Below are positions 1,612-61,133 of a stretch of 64,000 nt of DNA, piece by piece. The position numbers and the translations under genes were made by a program. The stretch is from Bacteroidales bacterium (GTDB taxonomy: Bacteria > Bacteroidota > Bacteroidia > Bacteroidales > Tenuifilaceae). The stretch lies in contig JAQUJY010000004.1 in NCBI GenBank assembly GCA_028680705.1, forward strand, positions 10,425 to 74,424. Reading direction: 5' to 3'. Positions within the stretch are counted from its first letter, which is position 1, and every line of letters begins with the position of its first letter. Under the pieces are notes generated by a model. It was given only the letters and a program-made list of their open reading frames with translations, did not search any database and was not told the DNA's origin.

Positions 1612-2799
1612 ATCTATGTTAAATTTAAAAATTATTGCAGAACGTATTGCCATGGCTGCTACCACTGGAAACATTGGAAATGGAAGTTCCTGGGGTAGAA
1701 TAAACCAGAGAATCATTACCAGTACCATTACAAGCGCATTGACACCAAAATAGTACCTTGCTAAAAGCCTTAAACGTTTAACTAAAAGTGCAACCACACC
1801 CAATAAATGTAATGGATGAGCCCAGATAAGATTATAGTTATTGCCCATTACAACATGATTGGATCCAAACCACTGAAAAGCAATAACGACTCCCAACAGC
1901 CCAACTAAAGTAAAAAAAACTGTATCAATCCAGTGACTTGCTCGCCCACGTTTAATGTCAAAATACGAAAGCATAACGACTAACAATAGCAAGCCGATAA
2001 AAACCATTAAGGGAGATTCTCTAAACCGAGTTCTTGGGATTTCGGTTCCATTGAGTAGGGTAACGCTAGGCTGCATTAGCGGCTTAGTGAGGCTATCTAC
2101 GCCAACGCTTGCTGTGCTAAATGCAGTTTGCATATGCTCGGGCAAAAACATGTACTCCCATGGCTCGGCCTGCCTATCAGCACTAACACCCAGTAAAAGG
2201 TTGATACCTAATTTTGCCCAGGGTTTCTCCATTACGTTTGGCATAAGCAATTCTCTGAAACTCAATCCAGTTTTTAATGAATTATAATCGAAATCGACCT
2301 TACGCGGTATTACCTCAACAAAAACATCGCGGATACGAGTTGCACAATTATCAAACAAAAAATCGTATAAATAATAACGATTCTCGGGCAAATAATTAAT
2401 CCTTAGGGAATCGAGTAGCAATTGTTTCTCGTGCTGTTGCAGGTTTAGCATCTGCTCATAGATATATCTCTCCTCGAAAATATAGGAGTACCTAAAATTT
2501 TGATAGGAGGATACTGAAAGAATATAGTTAAGCTTTCCTTTTACAAAGTTTGAATAAAAATTTGGGTCTGAGAAATCGAATGTTCCATAATTAAAAACCC
2601 AATCGACACCAACTACAGGATCGACAATCCTTATGGCGCTATGGCCAAATATTGAGTACAACTCCTCGCCTTGCGAACAGGTAATAAGGCTAACTTTAGC
2701 GCTATCGGTAAGCATTACCTGTGGGAGTTGGGCATAAAACGGCTTAGCAAGAAGGAGCATACTCACAAACAATGATATTGCAAAAACTTTTCTTTTCAT
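1579..2799 (-). CDS. DUF4105 / Lnb N-terminal periplasmic domain membrane protein
   Basis: Signal peptide; SLITCSQGEELYSIFGHSAIRI ... VFNYGTFDF ... NCATRIRD; C-terminal TM helices. Confidence 0.8.
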   Translation of the reverse strand: MKRKVFAISLFVSMLLLAKPFYAQLPQVMLTDSAKVSLITCSQGEELYSIFGHSAIRIVDPVVGVDWVFNYGTFDFSDPNFYSNFVKGKLNYILSVSSYQNFRYSYIFEERYIYEQMLNLQQHEKQLLLDSLRINYLPENRYYLYDFLFDNCATRIRDVFVEVIPRKVDFDYNSLKTGLSFRELLMPNVMEKPWAKLGINLLLGVSADRQAEPWEYMFLPEHMQTAFSTASVGVDSLTKPLMQPSVTLLNGTEIPRTRFRESPLMVFIGLLLLVVMLSYFDIKRGRASHWIDTVFFTLVGLLGVVIAFQWFGSNHVVMGNNYNLIWAHPLHLLGVVALLVKRLRLLARYYFGVNALVMVLVMILWFILPQELPFPMFPVVAAMAIRSAIIFKFNIDKKIPLQNVDA

Positions 2800-2956
2800 C
2801 TAGCTGTTTATAATTTGTTTTTCAATTGCCATATGGGACTCGCCAAAATAATTATCTTTCCTCTTGCAAAAAACTTCTATCGTGGCTCGTTCCACATTCA
2901 ATTAATCTTATCACATTTAATAGGGTAAAGTTAAAAGGATTTATGCGTATGTACAC

Positions 2957-2986
2957 TTTGGGCTGAATAAAGATTTGCTATTTTTG
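2957..2986 (+). promoter_or_regulatory. Bacteroidetes-type promoter (TTTG-N18-TAttTTTG)
   Basis: TTTG at 2957-2960 and TATTTTTG at 2979-2986, 18 nt before ATG 3005. Confidence 0.6.
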
Positions 2987-3004
2987 CTGATAAACCTACA
3001 CCAC

Positions 3005-4426
3005 ATGAATACTAAACCCATTTGCATTGGCGGAGATTTCAGGATTCTCTCCAACACCTTCGAGGTAATAAATCCATACAATAAAGAGCAAATTGCCTGT
3101 TGCTCTCTTGCTGGACAACAGGAACTAGAAGAAGCAATTGCACTAGCCCAGAAAGTTGAGAATGAGATGGCAAACATGCCCTCGCACAAAAAGAGCAGCA
3201 TACTAAATAGCATTGCCGAAGGATTAACAAAAAAACGCGAAGAACTTGCAAAACTCCTCGCTCAAGAAGCTGCGAAGCCGATGAAATATGCTTTGGGGGA
3301 GGTAGATAGAGCAGTTCAGGTTTATTTGATTGCCGCCGAGGAGTGCAAACGACTACCCTCTGAGTATATGCAGCTCGACTGGACTCCAGCAGGTGAGGGC
3401 AAAGAAGGATTGGTTAAATACTTTCCTGTGGGGTTAGTGTCAGGGATATCGCCATTTAACTTTCCGCTTAATCTTACATCGCATAAAATTGCTCCAGCCA
3501 TAGCATCGGGATGTCCCATAATTCTTAAGCCAGCTCGCAGCACACCACTTTCGGCATTAGAGTTATCCAAAATTGCGTACGCCGCAGGTCTGCCTAAAGG
3601 AGCACTTAGCGTATTGCCCATGGATAGGGTTTTAGGCAACCAACTAGTTACCGACGAAAGATTTAAACTGCTTACCTTTACAGGCTCCCCCATGGTTGGA
3701 TGGAAAATGAAAGAGAAAGCAGGCAAAAAGAAGGTTGTTCTTGAACTAGGAGGAAATGCAGGTGCCATTGTTACCCCAACCGCAAATCTAAAAACTGCTG
3801 CTGCTAAATGTCTTGTTGGTGCTTTCTCGTACTCTGGTCAGGTTTGCATTCACACCCAACGTATCTACGTCCATCAAAGCATTTTTTTGCAGTTTGTCGA
3901 TATGCTTTCAAATCTAACAAGCAGACTAAAAATTGGGAATCCACTTGATGCTGAAACAGATATATCATCGATGATTGATGAAGAAAACACCCAAAGGATT
4001 GATGAATGGGTTAAAGAAGCTATTGACAATGGAGCAAGGCTAATTACTGGCGGAAAAATTGTGAGTGGTGTATATCTACCTACCATTTTAACCAACACAG
4101 ACTCCAGTATGCGCGTATGCAAAAACGAAGTATTTGGACCTGTTGTAGTGGTTGAGCCTTACGAAAACTTTAGCGATGCAATCAAAGAGGTTAATAACTC
4201 GCCTTTTGGCCTGCAGGCAGGAGTTTTCACCAACAGCATAAGCGAAGAGCATGAGGCGTTTAATGAACTGAGAGTTGGTGGAGTAATTATAAACGACACT
4301 CCAACTTTTAGGGTAGACCAAATGCCCTATGGTGGTGTTAAAGAATCTGGGCTGGGACGCGAAGGGGTTAAATATGCAATACACGATATGTTGGAACCAA
4401 AAATACTTGTAAGAAGCATCCCCTAA
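3005..4426 (+). CDS. Aldehyde dehydrogenase family protein
   Basis: LELGGNAG, SGQVCIHTQRIYV (catalytic Cys), EVFGPVV, PYGGVKESGLGREG. ATG 3005 preferred over the ORF start at 2975, which falls within the predicted promoter. Confidence 0.9.
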   Translation: MNTKPICIGGDFRILSNTFEVINPYNKEQIACCSLAGQQELEEAIALAQKVENEMANMPSHKKSSILNSIAEGLTKKREELAKLLAQEAAKPMKYALGEVDRAVQVYLIAAEECKRLPSEYMQLDWTPAGEGKEGLVKYFPVGLVSGISPFNFPLNLTSHKIAPAIASGCPIILKPARSTPLSALELSKIAYAAGLPKGALSVLPMDRVLGNQLVTDERFKLLTFTGSPMVGWKMKEKAGKKKVVLELGGNAGAIVTPTANLKTAAAKCLVGAFSYSGQVCIHTQRIYVHQSIFLQFVDMLSNLTSRLKIGNPLDAETDISSMIDEENTQRIDEWVKEAIDNGARLITGGKIVSGVYLPTILTNTDSSMRVCKNEVFGPVVVVEPYENFSDAIKEVNNSPFGLQAGVFTNSISEEHEAFNELRVGGVIINDTPTFRVDQMPYGGVKESGLGREGVKYAIHDMLEPKILVRSIP

Positions 4427-4505
4427 ACTAAGAATGAATTAACTATCAATCCTAAAAAAACATGTTTTGTATTCCATTTACATTATAATATAACTTTACA
4501 ATAAT

Positions 4506-4513
4506 TATCTTTG
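4506..4513 (+). promoter_or_regulatory. -7 element TAtcTTTG for the LysE gene
   Basis: TATCTTTG 30 nt before ATG 4544; no clear -33 element. Confidence 0.45.
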
Positions 4514-4543
4514 CATCGCTTAATCAAAAAAGGAATTAATTAA

Positions 4544-5176
4544 ATGTTTGTATCCCTTCTAATAAAAGGAATCATTGTTGGACTTCTGGCCTCAATCCCA
4601 CTTGGCCCAATTGGGGTAATCTGCATACAACGAACAATAAACAAAGGGAGATTAAGCGGTTTCCTCAGCGGTCTTGGAGCAGCAACAGCCGATACAATAT
4701 TTGCAGCTATTGCAGGCTTCAGCCTAACTTTTGTGATTTCATACATTGAAGAGAAGCAAATTTTATTTCAGGCTCTGGGAGGTATTATTGTATTCCTTTT
4801 GGGGATTAAAATATTTCTCACAAATCCCGTAAGGCAACTCCGAAGACACAAGCGCAAAAAGAACAACCTTGTAGAAGATTACTTCTCCGTTTTAGCAGTT
4901 ACAATTACAAATCCATTGGCAATATTCCTATTCATTGCCCTTTTTGCCCTATTGGACGTAGTAACCGATAACACCAGCTGGACACACTCCCTAGTTACCA
5001 CAAGTGGTGTATTTATAGGCGCAGTGCTGTGGTGGTATATCCTCACTACTCTAGTAAATATATTTAGAACAAAGTTCAGACTCAAACAACTTTGGTGGAT
5101 CAACAAAGTATCTGGCGCAGCTATTTTTACCCTCGGGGCTATTGCAATTCTTGGTCTTATTCGTTTACTTTTCTAA
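4544..5176 (+). CDS. LysE family translocator
   Basis: SIPLGPIGVICIQRTINKGRLSGFLSGLGAATADTIFA and multiple TM helices. Confidence 0.85.
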   Translation: MFVSLLIKGIIVGLLASIPLGPIGVICIQRTINKGRLSGFLSGLGAATADTIFAAIAGFSLTFVISYIEEKQILFQALGGIIVFLLGIKIFLTNPVRQLRRHKRKKNNLVEDYFSVLAVTITNPLAIFLFIALFALLDVVTDNTSWTHSLVTTSGVFIGAVLWWYILTTLVNIFRTKFRLKQLWWINKVSGAAIFTLGAIAILGLIRLLF

Positions 5177-7550: not shown

Positions 7551-10500
7551 CTATGCCAAATCGGGCTTTATACCAATAATCAATATATCATCCACCTGCT
7601 CATTTTCACCTTTCCACTGGTTAATACTACCTAGTAATTGTTGCTTTTGAACTTCAAGCGGATACCTGTGGATGCTAAGCAGGAGGTGCCTAAACCTGCG
7701 AAATTTAAATTTTTTATCTTCAGGCCCACCAAACTGATCAACATACCCATCGGTAAAAATATAGATCATGTCGTTTTGCTGTATTGACTCAGTATAACTA
7801 TAGAATTGGGGCTTTTCTAGGTCATAGGAAAACCCCACGGTATAACGCTGCCCTTTAATTTCCTTCAAACGGTTATCACGAATAAGGTAAAGGTTACTAA
7901 AAGCACCTGCAAATTGTAATGTTCTATTCTCTTTGTCGATAACACAAAAGGATACATCCATACCATCCTTTACATTTGACGCTTCATCGTTAACAGTTTT
8001 ACTAAACGTGTCGCGTATTCCCTCATCTAACAAGTTCAATATCTCAGCTGGATCATTAATCCCCATAACGCTTATAATATTGCGAAGAAGTTCTACTCCA
8101 ATTATTGACATGAAAGCTCCTGGCACTCCATGACCAGTACAGTCAATGGCTGCAACAAAAATCCGATTATCTATTTCATTAATCCAATAAAAGTCTCCAC
8201 TAACTATATCCTTTGGTATGAGCAAGATAAAGGACTGGGGTAAGATTTTTTTAAAATGGGACTCAGATGGAATTAGAGCCTCCTGAATTCGTTTGGCATA
8301 GTTTATACTATCGGTAATATTTTTATTTTGAAGCAGTAACTCTTCTTTCTGATCCTCCATGTCACCCATAGTAACCTCTCGCTCCTTAAGTAATCGGCTT
8401 GTTTTTCGTAAGATTCTAGTCCTTGTTCTTAGGAATATAAACAAAAACAAAAGCAGCGAAAAACCATAAACAAAGATTGCGTACCGTGTCCTCCACCATT
8501 GAGTTTTTATAATTACTGATATGCTTTTCCCTATCTCATTCCAAACCCCATCACTATTTGCACCAATAACTCTAAGAGTATACTCGCCTTCGGGGATATT
8601 TGAGAATATTGCGAAATGCTTATGGTCAATCGGGATCCAATCCTCATCGAATCCCTCAAGCTTATACATGTACTTATTCCTCTCAGGATGCGTAAAATCG
8701 AGCACAGCAAACTCGAAGCTAATCATTGAGAAAGGATGTTTTACTATCACTTCGGTCCTAGATTCTAATGGGATTATCACTCTCTGGGTTGGGGTAACAA
8801 CCTCAAGTTGAGTAAAACTAAGGGAAGGAGTGCTATACGAGCGGCTTATTGAATCAGGAAAAAAGGCATTTAAACCCGATATTCCACCAAAAAAGAGTTC
8901 ACCTTTGGATGATTTGAAACTAGCACCAAGGTTAAACTCGTAACTCTGAAGCCCATCGCTTACTCCGTATGATGTTATCGATAAATTGAAAGGGTTAATT
9001 TTGGCAATTCCCCAATTAGTGCTCACCCATATACTTCCCTTATCATCCTCCTCAATGGCATATATGATATTATTGGGCAACCCATCTTCCTCGGTAATTA
9101 GCGTGAAAAAATCTTTACTCTGATCGTAAACATGTAACCCGGATGGGGTTCCTACCCAAAGTTTATCATTCCCATCCAGATGAAGGCTGATAATATCACT
9201 AGAAATCAGCCCTCCTCTTGAATATACTTTGCCCTTTGTATATCGTTTAACCTTTCCCGTTGATATGTCCAACCTATTAAGTCCATTGAGTGTCCCCAGC
9301 CAGAGGGTATTCCCTTCTTGAACTATACAATATACTTCATTTGAGGTTAAGGTAGTTGAATCGGAAGGATTATGCTGATACTGCTCAATGGTTGTACCAT
9401 CAAACCTAAAAAGCCCCATTCGTGTTCCAAACCAAATATTTTTATCGGAATCCTGCAGGATAGAGTAAATGCGATTGTACTGAAAAAGCGATGAAGCATC
9501 AACTCCTTTCAACTTAAAAAAATCTACAAACGATTTTGTTAAAGGATTGTAAACCTGAACTCCATCCCTTGTACCAATCAGCACATCTCCACCCAGCAAA
9601 GCATAAATAACATAAATATTATCGCTTACAATTTTATAAGGACTATTCAATTGTGAAGAATACTTGGTTATACCATTGGTTTTTCGGTTAAGCATGTAAA
9701 GCCCAGCATTCCATGTGCCAACCCAAAGTACACCATCTATGTCTTCGTATATAGCTCCGACCATACTATTCCCAAAGAGATTGTTTCCTTGTTGGTCTTT
9801 TCTATACAACGGAAACTTCTGTTCCTTAACGTCCAATTTGATTAAACCCGAGAAGGTACCCATCCACATCACTCTAGATTTATCTTCAGCAATTGAAGTA
9901 ATACTTGTGCTAAAAGTTTCAGGATTTAGTACTAATTTTGATACTGGACTAAAGCCGGCGCCCTCTTTATAGGTACAAACGCCCTTGCTGCTAGCAATCC
10001 AAAGAACATCTTTTGTATCGATATAAAGCGCATTTATCTCATTGGACAACAAACAATTACTTACATCAGACTGCCTATGGTATCTCTTGAAACCTCGATT
10101 TATATCCAATAACCTGTTAAGCCCATTGTTTGTCGCAATCCAAATATTACCTTTCCCATCCTCAACAATATCCCTAACATTATTACTACTTAAAGAGTTG
10201 ATATTGCCAGGATCATTCGAAAAACGCTTGAAAAGTCCCAATCCTCTGTCAAAAAGCAATAAGCCATCTTTTGAGCCAACCCAAAATCGCCCCTGGGTAT
10301 CCTCAAAAATCGGATAACCATCTATAAACGCTGGATTGGTAAATGGATCGTAGAAATGAGGAAACCTATCGAATGTATTTGATTCTGGGTTAAAGCGATC
10401 AAGCGACTCAAGGGTTTTAACCCAAACAACCCCTTGCTTGTCTCTATAGACACTATAGATGCGATTACTGCTTATAGACTTAACATCTGAGAGTTTGTGG

Positions 10501-10871
10501 TAATAGTTGGTAAACTTACCTGTTGACCTGTTAAAAAAACTAAGCCCTTCCCAAGTACCAATCCAAAGATTCCCATTAGCATCCTCACATATTGTATTGA
10601 TGTTATTGCTGCAGAGCGATAAACTATCGAGAGGATTATTTCTGTACTTAGTAAATGAATAACCATCGTACCTGTTGAGACCATCCTGCGTACCAACCCA
10701 TAAGAAACCATGCTCATCAACCAGAAGAGTAGACACCCACGACTGCGATAGACCTGACTCAATATTCAGCATCTCAGCCTGTCTTTTACCGTGCAGAGTC
10801 TCTCCCCTAGCGTTTTGAACAATAGGAATAAACAGTAAAAGAATTATATACCACTTTATGAATCCTCTCAT
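7551..10871 (-). CDS. Two-component-regulator propeller (reg_prop) + Y_Y_Y + TM + SpoIIE/PP2C phosphatase
   Basis: Repeated GFLWVGTQDGLNRYD-type blades, C-terminal Y_Y_Y-like region, TM helix, SGDFYWINEI...AIDCTGHGVPGAFMS...DGMDVSF...FTDGYVDQFGG. Confidence 0.9.
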   Translation of the reverse strand: MRGFIKWYIILLLFIPIVQNARGETLHGKRQAEMLNIESGLSQSWVSTLLVDEHGFLWVGTQDGLNRYDGYSFTKYRNNPLDSLSLCSNNINTICEDANGNLWIGTWEGLSFFNRSTGKFTNYYHKLSDVKSISSNRIYSVYRDKQGVVWVKTLESLDRFNPESNTFDRFPHFYDPFTNPAFIDGYPIFEDTQGRFWVGSKDGLLLFDRGLGLFKRFSNDPGNINSLSSNNVRDIVEDGKGNIWIATNNGLNRLLDINRGFKRYHRQSDVSNCLLSNEINALYIDTKDVLWIASSKGVCTYKEGAGFSPVSKLVLNPETFSTSITSIAEDKSRVMWMGTFSGLIKLDVKEQKFPLYRKDQQGNNLFGNSMVGAIYEDIDGVLWVGTWNAGLYMLNRKTNGITKYSSQLNSPYKIVSDNIYVIYALLGGDVLIGTRDGVQVYNPLTKSFVDFFKLKGVDASSLFQYNRIYSILQDSDKNIWFGTRMGLFRFDGTTIEQYQHNPSDSTTLTSNEVYCIVQEGNTLWLGTLNGLNRLDISTGKVKRYTKGKVYSRGGLISSDIISLHLDGNDKLWVGTPSGLHVYDQSKDFFTLITEEDGLPNNIIYAIEEDDKGSIWVSTNWGIAKINPFNLSITSYGVSDGLQSYEFNLGASFKSSKGELFFGGISGLNAFFPDSISRSYSTPSLSFTQLEVVTPTQRVIIPLESRTEVIVKHPFSMISFEFAVLDFTHPERNKYMYKLEGFDEDWIPIDHKHFAIFSNIPEGEYTLRVIGANSDGVWNEIGKSISVIIKTQWWRTRYAIFVYGFSLLLFLFIFLRTRTRILRKTSRLLKEREVTMGDMEDQKEELLLQNKNITDSINYAKRIQEALIPSESHFKKILPQSFILLIPKDIVSGDFYWINEIDNRIFVAAIDCTGHGVPGAFMSIIGVELLRNIISVMGINDPAEILNLLDEGIRDTFSKTVNDEASNVKDGMDVSFCVIDKENRTLQFAGAFSNLYLIRDNRLKEIKGQRYTVGFSYDLEKPQFYSYTESIQQNDMIYIFTDGYVDQFGGPEDKKFKFRRFRHLLLSIHRYPLEVQKQQLLGSINQWKGENEQVDDILIIGIKPDLA

Positions 10872-56037: not shown

Positions 56038-56045
56038 TATATTTG
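56038..56045 (+). promoter_or_regulatory. -7 element TAtaTTTG for the SiaC/PP2C cluster
   Basis: TATATTTG 34 nt before ATG 56080. Confidence 0.45.
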
Positions 56046-56079: not shown

Positions 56080-56454
56080 ATGAACATCTTTCGAGTAAAC
56101 GAACAAGAGGATACTCCAGAAGTCTTAATCGACAGAGATTCTGGTACGGTTAGTTTTACGGGTAAACTATTGCCCGAAGATTCTTTAGCATTTTTCTCAC
56201 CCATCGAAGAGCAATTAAAAAACTACATCTCTCAACCCAATCAAATAACCACAGTTAACCTTCGGCTTGAGTACATGAACTCCTCCTCACAGAAAAGAGT
56301 GCTTGGCCTACTTGCCACCCTTCAAAATCTAACTAACAGTGGACTAGAAGTTTACATTAACTGGTATTACCCCGAGGATGATGAGGATTTACTGGACGAA
56401 GGGAGAGATCTATCACAAATGCTTGAAAAACCATTAAACATAATCCCCTATTAA
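56080..56454 (+). CDS. SiaC family regulatory phosphoprotein (DUF1987)
   Basis: TPEVLIDRDSGTVSFTGKLLPEDSLAFFSPIEEQL...NLRLEYMNSSSQKRVLGLLATL...WYYPEDDEDLLDEGRDLSQML. Confidence 0.85.
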   Translation: MNIFRVNEQEDTPEVLIDRDSGTVSFTGKLLPEDSLAFFSPIEEQLKNYISQPNQITTVNLRLEYMNSSSQKRVLGLLATLQNLTNSGLEVYINWYYPEDDEDLLDEGRDLSQMLEKPLNIIPY

Positions 56455-56478
56455 CCAAAAAAACCAAACTATATCTCC

Positions 56479-58398
56479 ATGCTAAACAAGGCCTTACAAA
56501 AAATCGTAATTATAATTTTAGTGTTTTGCTCTAATGCACTACAAGCCCAATTTCAGGCTGAACTTCCCGAAGCATTGAAGATAGAAATTGAAGAACAAAT
56601 AATAAAAGCCAACGAGTTTGAAAATTCGGAAGATTACAATCAGGCAGCTTTCCATCTGAATAAAGTTGCTACCATCTATTGGGTTAACGGATTTCCCAAC
56701 AAGGCCATACCACTATTTAAGAAAACCATAGTACTAAACGAAAAGATTGGCAACGAAAATGCCATAAGAATGCTCAACAGCAATATTGGTATGATCTATA
56801 CAGATGAGGAAAATTACTCAAAGGCCCTTGAGTACTTCAATAAATCATTATGTATTGCAAGGCAGATGAACCGAAAACCCGATATTGCAGCATCACTGCT
56901 AAACATTGCCAATGTACAATCGGAGATAAAGGAATATGCCAATGCAGCAAAAACTTTAGAGGAGGCACATACACTAGCCCGCGAGCTAAACGACGAAAAG
57001 ATGCTCCGCAACTGCTACTCCTTACTTGCTGATGTTTACGAAAAAAAAGGCAATTCCGATAAATCGACCGAATACTTTGCGCTTTACACTACCATAACCA
57101 GGAAAATTCAGCGCGAAGAGATGCGCAAGCATGATAACCAAGCCCGCAAAATTATTGAGGATGCCAAGAGCAAGGTTACAGAAATTGAGCATGCAAAGGA
57201 TCAAACCGAAAAGGAATTGCTCGATAAGCAGCAAGCCCTAAAAGATACCGAAGAGAGCCTGGAACAAACTGAGCAGATATCGAAAGATCGCAAAATGCAG
57301 ATTGACTTGCTTAACAAGGAGAAAGAACTAAAAGATGCTATAATAAAAAATCAAAAATTAGTACGAAATATTTTCCTGTTCATCATCTTTGTTGTGCTGG
57401 CCTTTGCACTACTCTTCTTCTACAACCTGAAAATAAAGAAAAAAGCCAACCAAAAGTTAAAAACGCAAAACATTGAAATTGCCAAGCAGAGCCAGCTAAT
57501 TGAGCAGGTAAATCAAGATCTGGAAGGAGCTTTCAATAAGATTGAAAAACAAAACCGCGATATTACTAGCAGTATAAACTACGCTCAACGCATTCAAGAG
57601 GCAATGCTGCCTTCGGTAGAAAACCTTTCGCCTCTTAAAAACGATTCATTTATACTATTTAAGCCTCGCAACATTGTTAGTGGCGATTTTTACTGGTTTA
57701 CTGGATACGGGTCTCCCAAAACACTCGATGAAGAAAATAACAAAACCTTTATCAAACTTCACAACTTACCTAAGGACGAGAAAGGGTTCCTTATCTCGGC
57801 TATTGATTGCACCGGACATGGTATACCCGGCGCATTTATGAGTATGATTGGCTTTAATCTGCTCGAAACCATTGTCCGGAGTGGGATTGTTGTGCCTAAC
57901 GAAATACTTAAGCATTTACATAATGCGGTTAGGTATCTACTTAAGCAGGATACTACCGACAATAGAGATGGCATGGACATGGCCATTTGCAGTATTATTG
58001 ATAACGGTAAAAAGTTACTTTATGCCGGAGCAAAAAACCCGCTAATCTCGATATCAAATGGGGAATTGAACTATATTAGAGGCGATTCTGTTCCAGTGGG
58101 AGGAATGCAGAAAGAGGACCAGAGAGAATTTTCATTACACACAATTAACGTGGATAGTCCAACATCATTCTATATCTTCTCCGACGGAATTACAGATCAA
58201 TTTGGTGGTCCGAACGAACAAAAGTTTGGCACAAGAAGGTTTAAAGAGTTCCTGCTGGAAATACATAAATTACCCATGCCTGAGCAAAAAGAAAAACTTG
58301 AGCAACGGTTGGGCGAATGGATGAAGAGCTACCAGAAGCAAATTGACGATATAATTGTTGTAGGCTTTAAAATTGACGGCGCAAAATTTGAACTCTAA
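56479..58398 (+). CDS. TPR + coiled coil + TM + SpoIIE/PP2C phosphatase
   Basis: Signal peptide, TPR repeats (ALEYFNKSLCIARQM), TM IFLFIIFVVLAFALLFF, SGDFYWF, AIDCTGHGIPGAFMSM, DGMDMA, FSDGITDQFGG. Confidence 0.92.
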   Translation: MLNKALQKIVIIILVFCSNALQAQFQAELPEALKIEIEEQIIKANEFENSEDYNQAAFHLNKVATIYWVNGFPNKAIPLFKKTIVLNEKIGNENAIRMLNSNIGMIYTDEENYSKALEYFNKSLCIARQMNRKPDIAASLLNIANVQSEIKEYANAAKTLEEAHTLARELNDEKMLRNCYSLLADVYEKKGNSDKSTEYFALYTTITRKIQREEMRKHDNQARKIIEDAKSKVTEIEHAKDQTEKELLDKQQALKDTEESLEQTEQISKDRKMQIDLLNKEKELKDAIIKNQKLVRNIFLFIIFVVLAFALLFFYNLKIKKKANQKLKTQNIEIAKQSQLIEQVNQDLEGAFNKIEKQNRDITSSINYAQRIQEAMLPSVENLSPLKNDSFILFKPRNIVSGDFYWFTGYGSPKTLDEENNKTFIKLHNLPKDEKGFLISAIDCTGHGIPGAFMSMIGFNLLETIVRSGIVVPNEILKHLHNAVRYLLKQDTTDNRDGMDMAICSIIDNGKKLLYAGAKNPLISISNGELNYIRGDSVPVGGMQKEDQREFSLHTINVDSPTSFYIFSDGITDQFGGPNEQKFGTRRFKEFLLEIHKLPMPEQKEKLEQRLGEWMKSYQKQIDDIIVVGFKIDGAKFEL

Positions 58399-58477
58399 AA
58401 CATTTCAACTATATTTAAAGTGCTACACAATTCCGCAATCTATCAAAATAAGATAATCCACATATAAAATACAAACA

Positions 58478-59422
58478 ATGAGAATTGTTACGCTCACTTT
58501 ACTCTTTATAGCTATTCTGCAATTTCATCTTTTAGGGCAGGAACAATTAAAGCATGAAGCAAAACTTTTTACCGACAGCACCGGTCAGGTTTTTACTAGG
58601 GTTGATGCCCCAGCATATCTTTTTATCTCACCTGCCAACTCGGCAGAAAGACTCATCCTTATCCCAAGTAACGATAAATTGGCAAACCCCATGGAATGGG
58701 ACGGTCACGGTTCCCACTATATTGTTTATAAAGATTTGAAGCAAAATACGAATATTCGCTTTAGGGTAATTGCCGATGGAGTACCACCTAAAAGCGAACC
58801 ATTATTTACAAAGGGACTGCTTTTTAGCTACAACAACACCTACTTCTCTGAGGTTGGTTCTGAGATGGCCATTACAGCAACTGATAATATGACTGGAGTT
58901 GAAAACTCTTACATCTCAATGGATGGAAATCCATTTCAGGAGGCTAGTAACCCCATAATTTTTAACAACGAGGGTGAATTTGAGGTTAAGGCCTACTCTG
59001 TGGATAACGTAGGTAATGCTGAAAACATAAAAGACTATAGAATTATAACCTCCAGTAGCGCGTCCATTCATCTAAACAGCATATATTTTGGCGTGGGCAG
59101 CACCACGCTTATTCCCGAGGCAGTTAATGAATTGAGTAAGTTGGCAAGCCTTTTACAAATCTATAAGGATATACACCTTGAGATTAGAGCACACACAGAT
59201 AGTAGAGGAAAAGCAAACTTCAACCTCACCCTTTCCGAAGGAAGAGCACAATCGGTTATTAAGTTCTTAAAATCAAAAGGAGTTGAGGAGGAGAGACTAA
59301 CAGCAAAAGGCTATGGCGAAACTCTGCTAATTAACGAATGTTCCGATGGAGTAACCTGCTCCGAGGAAAAACACAAAGAAAACCGAAGGGTCGAACTTAT
59401 TGTCAAAAAGAGTTTCCCCTAA
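58478..59422 (+). CDS. Secreted protein: WDGHG module + OmpL47-like repeat + OmpA peptidoglycan-binding domain
   Basis: C-term IYFGVGSTTLIPEAVNELSKLASLL...IRAHTDSRGKANFNLTLSEGRAQSVIKFLKSKGV; N-term shared with the next gene. Confidence 0.88.
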   Translation: MRIVTLTLLFIAILQFHLLGQEQLKHEAKLFTDSTGQVFTRVDAPAYLFISPANSAERLILIPSNDKLANPMEWDGHGSHYIVYKDLKQNTNIRFRVIADGVPPKSEPLFTKGLLFSYNNTYFSEVGSEMAITATDNMTGVENSYISMDGNPFQEASNPIIFNNEGEFEVKAYSVDNVGNAENIKDYRIITSSSASIHLNSIYFGVGSTTLIPEAVNELSKLASLLQIYKDIHLEIRAHTDSRGKANFNLTLSEGRAQSVIKFLKSKGVEEERLTAKGYGETLLINECSDGVTCSEEKHKENRRVELIVKKSFP

Positions 59423-59444
59423 CAAAATAACACACTAGTAAGGA

Positions 59445-61133
59445 ATGAAATATTTCATACAATCACTAATACTTACTCTTGCGCTAACAATGGTATCGGC
59501 ATTTACCATTGCGCAAGAAGTTGACACATTTCATACCGATTCTATCGGTCAGCTATTCGTAAACCCAAAAACGCCCATACACCTTTACCTTTCAACATCG
59601 CCCGATGGCAAAGATGCAGTTAGACTGAAGAGCCAACAGCCCGAAGGAGAGCCTTTGTACTGGGACGGGCACGGCCCTCAATACCTTACACACTTAAACC
59701 TTTACCTTGGCCGTAAAATAAGATTCGATTTATTTGCCGATGGTCTCCCACCCAAAACTTCGCCTAATTTTGATGTAAAGCAAGGATACCAAAAGGGTAA
59801 CACAATATACGTCTCTGGAACTACGATAATTGAGTTCACATCAACTGATGCCCATTCTGGTATTGACAAATTGATGTACTCTGTTAATGGTAACGAATTT
59901 GCCCAATATGCTCAACCCATAGTTCTTGATAATGAAGGACAATACACACTAAAATTTTACGCCACAGATAATGTTGGCAATAAAGAGGATGAGGGCGAAA
60001 GGACAATTATGGTTGATACAACCCCACCAGTAACTGACCTGAAATTTATTGGTCCTGAGCACAATAGCGTTGTCGCATCGGCAACAAAGTTTGAACTAAC
60101 TGCTACTGACTTAAATGGCGTAAAGGAAACGTATTACTCTATAGATGATGATACACAAAAACAATACAAGACTCCAATTGCCTTGGCCAAACTCTCCGAA
60201 GGAGAGCATTCCATAATCTGGTACTCAATTGATATGGTAGGCAATACTGAAGAAAATCAGCAATTAGATTTCTTTGTAGATAAAACGCCCCCAATGGTTT
60301 TTGAGGAGTTAGTAGGAAACACCTACATGGTGGCAGGTAAAGAATACTCATCGGGGCGAACCCAGCTACGTATTGTTGCCGTTGACAATAAGGCTGGTGT
60401 TAAGGAGATTCACTACTCAATAAACAACCAACCCTTTAAACTATACGAAAAGCCAGTTTACCTATCGGAAATTAGCGGTGCGGCTATAGTGAAATCGTTC
60501 GCAATTGACAATGTTGGCAACAAGGGAGTTAGTGACACAGAGGGGCAGCAATTCTCAATGCCCAAGGTTGATATTACAGGACCAAACATAAAGTACACGC
60601 TAAAGGGACCAAGGTTAACACTAAGGGATAGTTTATGGCTAAGCCCAAAAACAAAAATAGGCATAACAGCAACCGATGATGGTTCGGGTTTAAACCGAAT
60701 TGAGTATAAAATTAATGAGAATGCTCCTGGAGAATATACCGATGAATTCTACATTGACCAATCAGGCGCATATACTATTGTCGCAACCGCATGGGATAAT
60801 GTAGAGAATCTCAATATCAGCAACCTTGAACTGCGTATTGATGCCAATGCGCCAGAATTATTGTGCAACTTCTCAGTAAAACCCCACAGATTTATTGATG
60901 AAGGTGAAGAACGGGTTCCCGTTTATAGCAATGGTGTTCTAGTTTACCTTGGAGCCACCGATGATATTGTTGGTGTTGACAGGATTATGGTTTCCATTAA
61001 CGGTTCACGAGAAAAAGCATACACCCAACCGCTAAGCGGTTTTAAAGTCAACCAAACTCACACCATAAAGTTAAGGGCAATTGATAGATTAGGTAATGAA
61101 AAAGAAACAACCATTCAGTTTAGAGTTGAATAG
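59445..61133 (+). CDS. Secreted protein: WDGHG module + about five OmpL47/Ig-like repeats
   Basis: Repeats TDAHSGIDKLMYSVNG..., TDLNGVKETYYSIDD..., VDNKAGVKEIHYSINN..., TDDGSGLNRIEYKINE..., TDDIVGVDRIMVSING... Confidence 0.82.
   Translation: MKYFIQSLILTLALTMVSAFTIAQEVDTFHTDSIGQLFVNPKTPIHLYLSTSPDGKDAVRLKSQQPEGEPLYWDGHGPQYLTHLNLYLGRKIRFDLFADGLPPKTSPNFDVKQGYQKGNTIYVSGTTIIEFTSTDAHSGIDKLMYSVNGNEFAQYAQPIVLDNEGQYTLKFYATDNVGNKEDEGERTIMVDTTPPVTDLKFIGPEHNSVVASATKFELTATDLNGVKETYYSIDDDTQKQYKTPIALAKLSEGEHSIIWYSIDMVGNTEENQQLDFFVDKTPPMVFEELVGNTYMVAGKEYSSGRTQLRIVAVDNKAGVKEIHYSINNQPFKLYEKPVYLSEISGAAIVKSFAIDNVGNKGVSDTEGQQFSMPKVDITGPNIKYTLKGPRLTLRDSLWLSPKTKIGITATDDGSGLNRIEYKINENAPGEYTDEFYIDQSGAYTIVATAWDNVENLNISNLELRIDANAPELLCNFSVKPHRFIDEGEERVPVYSNGVLVYLGATDDIVGVDRIMVSINGSREKAYTQPLSGFKVNQTHTIKLRAIDRLGNEKETTIQFRVE

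Follow-up and report, generated by a model that had tools for sequence, protein, structure and literature searches.

SiaC-family (DUF1987) proteins are, to our knowledge, understood only as activators of a diguanylate cyclase in Pseudomonas, and a locus in which a SiaC gene precedes genes for a receptor phosphatase and two periplasmic proteins raises the question of what such a switch senses and what it controls. The locus lies in a 64,000-nt stretch of contig JAQUJY010000004.1 (the window) from an uncultured member of the Tenuifilaceae (Bacteroidales). It consists of four open reading frames (ORFs), all on the plus strand, which encode a SiaC-like protein, a tetratricopeptide repeat (TPR) phosphatase of the PP2C type, and two proteins (ORF3 and ORF4) that share an N-terminal "WD" domain and continue into an OmpA domain and an array of immunoglobulin (Ig)-like repeats, respectively (Table 1). 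We consider it probable that this operon encodes a transmembrane, envelope-sensing partner-switching pathway whose output is not cyclic di-GMP (c-di-GMP). The two periplasmic proteins, the OmpA one tethered to peptidoglycan and the other an Ig array, would most likely engage or release the TPR half of the phosphatase, upon which its cytoplasmic PP2C domain would strip the phosphate from Ser68 of SiaC. Ser68 would be phosphorylated again by a SiaB-family kinase whose gene lies outside the operon, and the phosphorylation state of SiaC would select its binding partner, which would be something other than a diguanylate cyclase.

Gene order and its conservation

A sequence-only reading of this DNA had described four co-directional genes, separated by 24, 79 and 22 nt, behind a single promoter-like element; the coordinates and gaps were confirmed, and the element, TATATTTG, is present ahead of the first gene. 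Across the window as a whole the TAnnTTTG motif occurs at the level expected by chance (88 found versus 76.3 +/- 8.7 expected), and in 13 of 21 orthologous loci the SiaC gene has an element of this type no more than 100 nt ahead of it, where about 5% would be expected for each. After TATATTTG, the next plus-strand element occurs only at 59765, inside ORF4.

Table 1. Features of the SiaC-phosphatase-envelope locus (positions in the window)
Feature	Position	Strand	Basis
TATATTTG, putative Bacteroidota -7-like promoter element	56038..56045	+	42 nt before SiaC start
SiaC-family phosphoprotein, 124 aa	56080..56454	+	PF09345 profile
TPR receptor phosphatase, 639 aa	56479..58398	+	TPR and SpoIIE profiles; predicted topology
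WD-OmpA periplasmic protein (ORF3), 314 aa	58478..59422	+	PF00691; signal peptide
WD-Ig periplasmic protein (ORF4), 562 aa	59445..61133	+	NF047446; signal peptide

A WD-OmpA orthologue was found in 22 of 26 other Tenuifilaceae genomes, and 20 of these 22 loci retain the full order SiaC, PP2C, WD-OmpA, WD-Ig, with flanking genes that vary between genera. All four genes recur in this order in two genomes from a second family, f134. Because this order is kept in the family and in a second family while the flanks change, we take the four genes to be a real operon. The sequence-only reading had staked its module on the co-localisation of these genes in other genomes, and this is what the neighborhoods revealed, including a PP2C gene together with an Ig-array gene in 16 further family-level groups.

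The phosphatase, its probable SiaC partner and the kinases

Signal peptides are predicted at the start of ORFs 2 to 4. In the phosphatase (ORF2), the signal peptide is followed by TPRs (residues ~85-210), a coiled coil, one transmembrane segment (~298-318) with a basic stretch directly after it, and a SpoIIE-type PP2C domain (~400-633); by topology rules, the TPRs would be periplasmic and the PP2C domain cytoplasmic. The match to the SpoIIE profile PF07228 passed its cut-off (E 7.6e-17, 62.3 bits versus 25), and all of the PP2C metal-site motifs are intact (SGDFYWF at 401, AIDCTGHG at 441, DGMDMA at 497, FSDGITD at 567 and DDIIVVGF at 623). The best PDB match was 6k4e, a putative serine phosphatase (E 7e-33). 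The whole-protein SiaA equivalog NF038263 was not reached (172.5 versus 700 bits), and its best-matching stretch was the PP2C domain. A second SpoIIE-type PP2C is encoded in the window (7551-10871, minus strand); it has 1106 aa with repeated sensor-propeller-like sequence, a transmembrane segment and a C-terminal PP2C domain. A second neighborhood that recurs (L076, L082, L083, L107 and similar loci) has a TPR-PP2C paralogue with two secreted proteins of ~180 aa and an usher-like OmpA protein of ~1175 aa, after which come a dapF-like gene, a SiaC gene and one for a DegP-like protease.

The SiaC-like protein passed the curated cut-off of PF09345 (E 5e-34, 117 bits versus 24.5), fell short of the P. 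aeruginosa SiaC equivalog NF038265 (68.6 versus 150 bits) and aligned without gaps to the solved P. aeruginosa SiaC structures (PDB 6kko and 7e6g). SiaC T68 of Pseudomonas is phosphorylated by SiaB and dephosphorylated by the PP2C of SiaA, and Y65, N67, T68 and S69 of the P. aeruginosa protein contact SiaD (PMC7647112, PMC8457831). The predicted phosphoacceptor here, Ser68, is the equivalent of Thr68 and lies in the stretch Tyr65-Met-Asn67-Ser68-Ser69. A Ser or Thr occupies this position in the alignment of all module SiaCs; the row for L118, for instance, reads YLNTSS at the site.

No SiaB kinase is encoded in the operon. The earlier statement that the window lacks a SiaB-like kinase is true of the window and incomplete for the genome, in which the search that it had recommended found six SiaB domains in five genes, all outside the operon. 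The candidate components of a partner switch are divided, with phosphatase and phosphoprotein in the operon and kinases elsewhere. Both of the SiaB kinases from this genome that were scanned scored above the NCBIfam cut-off, and the E and N of the N-box are retained, as in GHKL-type kinases. Of 79 Bacteroidales genomes searched, the 49 that carry SiaC are exactly those that carry SiaB.

In the tree, the family's operon SiaCs join a SiaC encoded on contig C9 of this genome (Shimodaira-Hasegawa-like approximate likelihood ratio test, 92), and a single clade of operon SiaCs was neither supported nor rejected (p 0.19). At the C9 locus (L033, 334-3499), the SiaC gene stands beside a TPR histidine kinase (HisKA/HATPase) and is convergent to a fused double-SiaB gene. 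Because the operon SiaCs group with the SiaC that adjoins it, the double-SiaB protein is our best lead to the kinase, and no more than a lead; the identities of both kinase and target are ones that we infer. A SiaC gene beside a TPR histidine kinase of the same type was also observed at L105 (9507-11644).

It is likely that the operon PP2C acts on the operon SiaC. We considered it rather unlikely that this pairing is wrong and that the PP2C serves several SiaC paralogues or another phosphoprotein, with the adjacent SiaC as one client of a shared network, since 20 of the 22 family loci have SiaC next to the phosphatase gene and five other families have it together with PP2C and WD. Several observations nevertheless weigh in favor of such a network and against the pathway that we propose. 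The genome holds 21 SiaC domains in ~19 genes and 14 SpoIIE domains, and sharing five kinase genes among ~19 SiaC genes makes the pairing uncertain. The nearest relative of the operon SiaC in its own genome adjoins the histidine kinase and double-SiaB genes rather than a PP2C gene. One genome of the same genus (G001) retains PP2C-OmpA-Ig without SiaC, and a second (G003) has no close SiaC copy, although its contig stops 248 bp upstream of the PP2C gene; the best match to the operon SiaC is at most 41% identical in these two genomes versus 73% in G004. The PP2C could thus have other SiaCs as its clients, or something different.

The SiaC paralogues of this genome (L023-L036) include three genes in a row on contig C150 and double-SiaC proteins on contigs C107 and C146. 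Tenuifilaceae as a whole carry 11-21 SiaC versus 3-10 SiaB per genome.

The periplasmic proteins and their proposed place in the switch

ORF3 comprises a signal peptide, the N-terminal WD domain ("WDGHG..ADG.PP"), one Ig-like repeat and an OmpA peptidoglycan-binding domain, and ORF4 comprises a signal peptide, the same WD domain and at least five Ig-like (OmpL47-type) repeats. The two proteins share 30% identity over 189 aa, covering the WD domain and one repeat, and look like a diverged tandem pair of which one ends in OmpA and the other in extra repeats. The WD domain has no Pfam name, and the PDB fold search, which recognized the OmpA and Ig portions, did not identify it. The sequence-only reading had named the partners as an OmpA-domain and an OmpL47-repeat protein, and profiles matched both (PF00691, E 4e-16, for ORF3; NF047446, five stretches, 246.6 bits versus a cut-off of 40, for ORF4). 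What did not carry over is the architecture that the second name implies: the repeats are predicted to be arrays of Ig-like beta-sandwich domains rather than beta-barrels, so the barrel name is misleading. The AlphaFold model of ORF4 (predicted local distance difference test 85, predicted template modeling score 0.50), in which domain packing is unsure, matched Ig arrays in the PDB.

The OmpA part of ORF3 matched the folds of the PorE C-terminal domain (6top) and of OprF (5u1h). D241 and R256 are invariant in 24 orthologues; we take them to be the Asp/Arg pair that binds the peptidoglycan ligand, as in A. baumannii OmpA. A link to type IX secretion through the PorE-like domain was rejected, in that the generic OmpA domain alone matches and the secretion genes do not adjoin.

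Profile searches detected the WD domain in 78 of 393 Bacteroidales genomes, this one included; beyond the order, a sample of 395 genomes from across the phylum yielded it in just 5. Outside the family there are 77 WD/Ig loci, of which 32 have a co-directional PP2C gene in their cluster, 17 have a SiaC gene there and 15 have both, in orders that include PP2C-SiaC-WD and WD-PP2C-SiaC. The 32 PP2C-linked loci span 16 family-level groups of Bacteroidales, SiaC, PP2C and WD are neighbors in five other families, and PP2C-WD also occurs in a Cyclobacteriaceae record. By chance, 2-3 adjacent loci would be expected from a rough binomial estimate that assumes 2,600 genes per genome, with p-values that are only indicative because the genomes are related. 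A SiaC gene, scored by presence or absence only, is found in 73 of 78 WD-bearing versus 90 of 315 other Bacteroidales genomes (Fisher p 3e-27), and in none of the five WD genomes without SiaC does a PP2C gene stand beside the WD gene.

A single clade for the WD-linked PP2Cs was rejected by the approximately unbiased (AU) test (delta log-likelihood 200, p-AU 3e-58), for which groups were set from neighborhoods, four long or doubtful rows were omitted and deep forks are weakly supported. That these phosphatases are not one clade points to more than one origin or exchange of the PP2C-WD pairing, and thus to a repeated functional pairing. One WD-linked TPR-PP2C (L137 of G062, 2517-4703) has an extra C-terminal response-regulator receiver domain, suggesting that a histidine kinase may feed into the phosphatase in some lineages. 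Outside Bacteroidales, two genomes (L159 of G241 and L160 of G201) encode tandem long WD/Ig proteins (~590 and 1040-1075 aa) with no PP2C or SiaC neighbors.

Placing the OmpA/Ig proteins on the input side of the switch is slightly short of an even call. In the same switch running in the reverse direction, the phosphatase would sense something else and the OmpA/Ig proteins would be a regulated output or a cargo, with co-transcription ensuring that envelope remodeling accompanies the signal. We find this doubtful, although 45 of the 77 WD/Ig genes outside the family stand without a PP2C neighbor, which also counts against the envelope-sensing pathway, and five genomes have WD without any SiaC, so that WD/Ig proteins would have a role of their own; the OmpA domain of ORF3, with its intact peptidoglycan-contact residues, fits such an output as well. 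On the other side, the predicted periplasmic TPR receptor domain of the phosphatase shares its compartment with the OmpA/Ig proteins, and the Ig gene is repeatedly paired with different PP2C lineages, which a ligand or co-receptor explains better than cargo. Far less probable is that the neighbors are hitch-hikers that share co-expression and no functional link. The chance frequency of the TAnnTTTG element would allow this, but the gene order is kept despite changing flanks, the genes recur as neighbors in other families and in other orders, and adjacency is far above chance.

Output and comparison with known systems

GGDEF domains were absent from this genome (97.8% complete, with positive controls detected) and from all 49 SiaC-bearing Bacteroidales genomes; among the 79 genomes they appeared only in G064, which has no SiaC. 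The earlier statement that the window encodes no GGDEF protein thus extends to the genome. Because GGDEF is absent on both counts, no recognizable diguanylate cyclase can be the target of the switch here, and these searches strongly favor an output different from c-di-GMP. A true SiaABCD system with a c-di-GMP output is scarcely credible and, for a recognizable cyclase, rejected: SiaC, PP2C and, elsewhere in the genome, SiaB are present, but no GGDEF was found and the SiaA and SiaC equivalog cut-offs were not reached. The sequence-only proposal of a partner-switching pathway with a possibly envelope-linked output has accordingly become more definite on two points, in that neighborhood data tie the SiaC/PP2C module to two envelope genes and that c-di-GMP drops out as the output. 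Elsewhere in the genome (L024, contig C53, 149-4248), a SiaB-SiaC pair precedes the gene of a 1026-aa protein that combines TerB, ABC ATPase and ABC-2 membrane domains; this candidate for an exporter under SiaC control suggests diverse SiaC outputs.

The strict co-occurrence of SiaC and SiaB in Bacteroidales genomes without GGDEF shows that the switch acts on targets besides diguanylate cyclases; in the literature searched, DUF6272 was unmentioned and DUF1987 barely mentioned. We tentatively propose that Bacteroidales run a large c-di-GMP-independent SiaB-SiaC network, with few kinases and up to ~20 SiaC per genome, of which this operon would be one arm. In it, a peptidoglycan-anchored protein and an Ig array, both with the new WD domain, would serve TPR-type receptor phosphatases as ligands in the periplasm. 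If so, the state of the cell wall would be written directly onto a SiaC phosphoprotein. The operon offers a defined set in which input, phosphatase and switch are testable together and, if the envelope-sensing pathway holds, it would assign a role to TPR-PP2C receptors and the widespread unnamed WD domain.

The locus shares features with several known systems. ORF4 resembles OmpL47-type repeat proteins (NF047446/NF047441), with five repeats above the domain cut-off, and differs from Leptospira OmpL47 in falling below the equivalog cut-off (219.7 versus 250 bits) and in its predicted Ig-like sandwiches. ORF3 has the OmpA fold and peptidoglycan-contact residues of PorE and other OmpA-family proteins, whereas its N-terminal half is a WD domain with an Ig-like repeat, and no type IX secretion genes adjoin. 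The phosphatase is built like the TPR sensor kinases of Bacteroidota, FimS of Porphyromonas gingivalis among them (NF053520, matching residues 50-350), with a signal peptide, periplasmic TPRs, one transmembrane segment and a cytoplasmic output domain, which here is a PP2C instead of a histidine kinase. The switch recalls the RsbU/RsbS/SpoIIAA type in combining a PP2C phosphatase, a GHKL-type kinase and a small STAS-like phosphoprotein, except that the phosphoprotein is SiaC/DUF1987 rather than STAS, the operon has no sigma factor and the TPR input is extracytoplasmic. Closest is SiaABCD of P. aeruginosa (PMC7647112, PMC8457831), which has the same SiaC fold family with a phosphoacceptor where helix 2 begins (T68 there, S68 here), a SpoIIE-type PP2C as the likely phosphatase (closest PDB relative 6k4e) and a SiaB-family kinase in the genome. 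Unlike that system, this genome encodes no SiaD/GGDEF protein, its kinases lie outside the operon and its SiaC paralogues are many, while the phosphatase uses a TPR domain as its sensor and the operon includes two periplasmic OmpA/Ig proteins.

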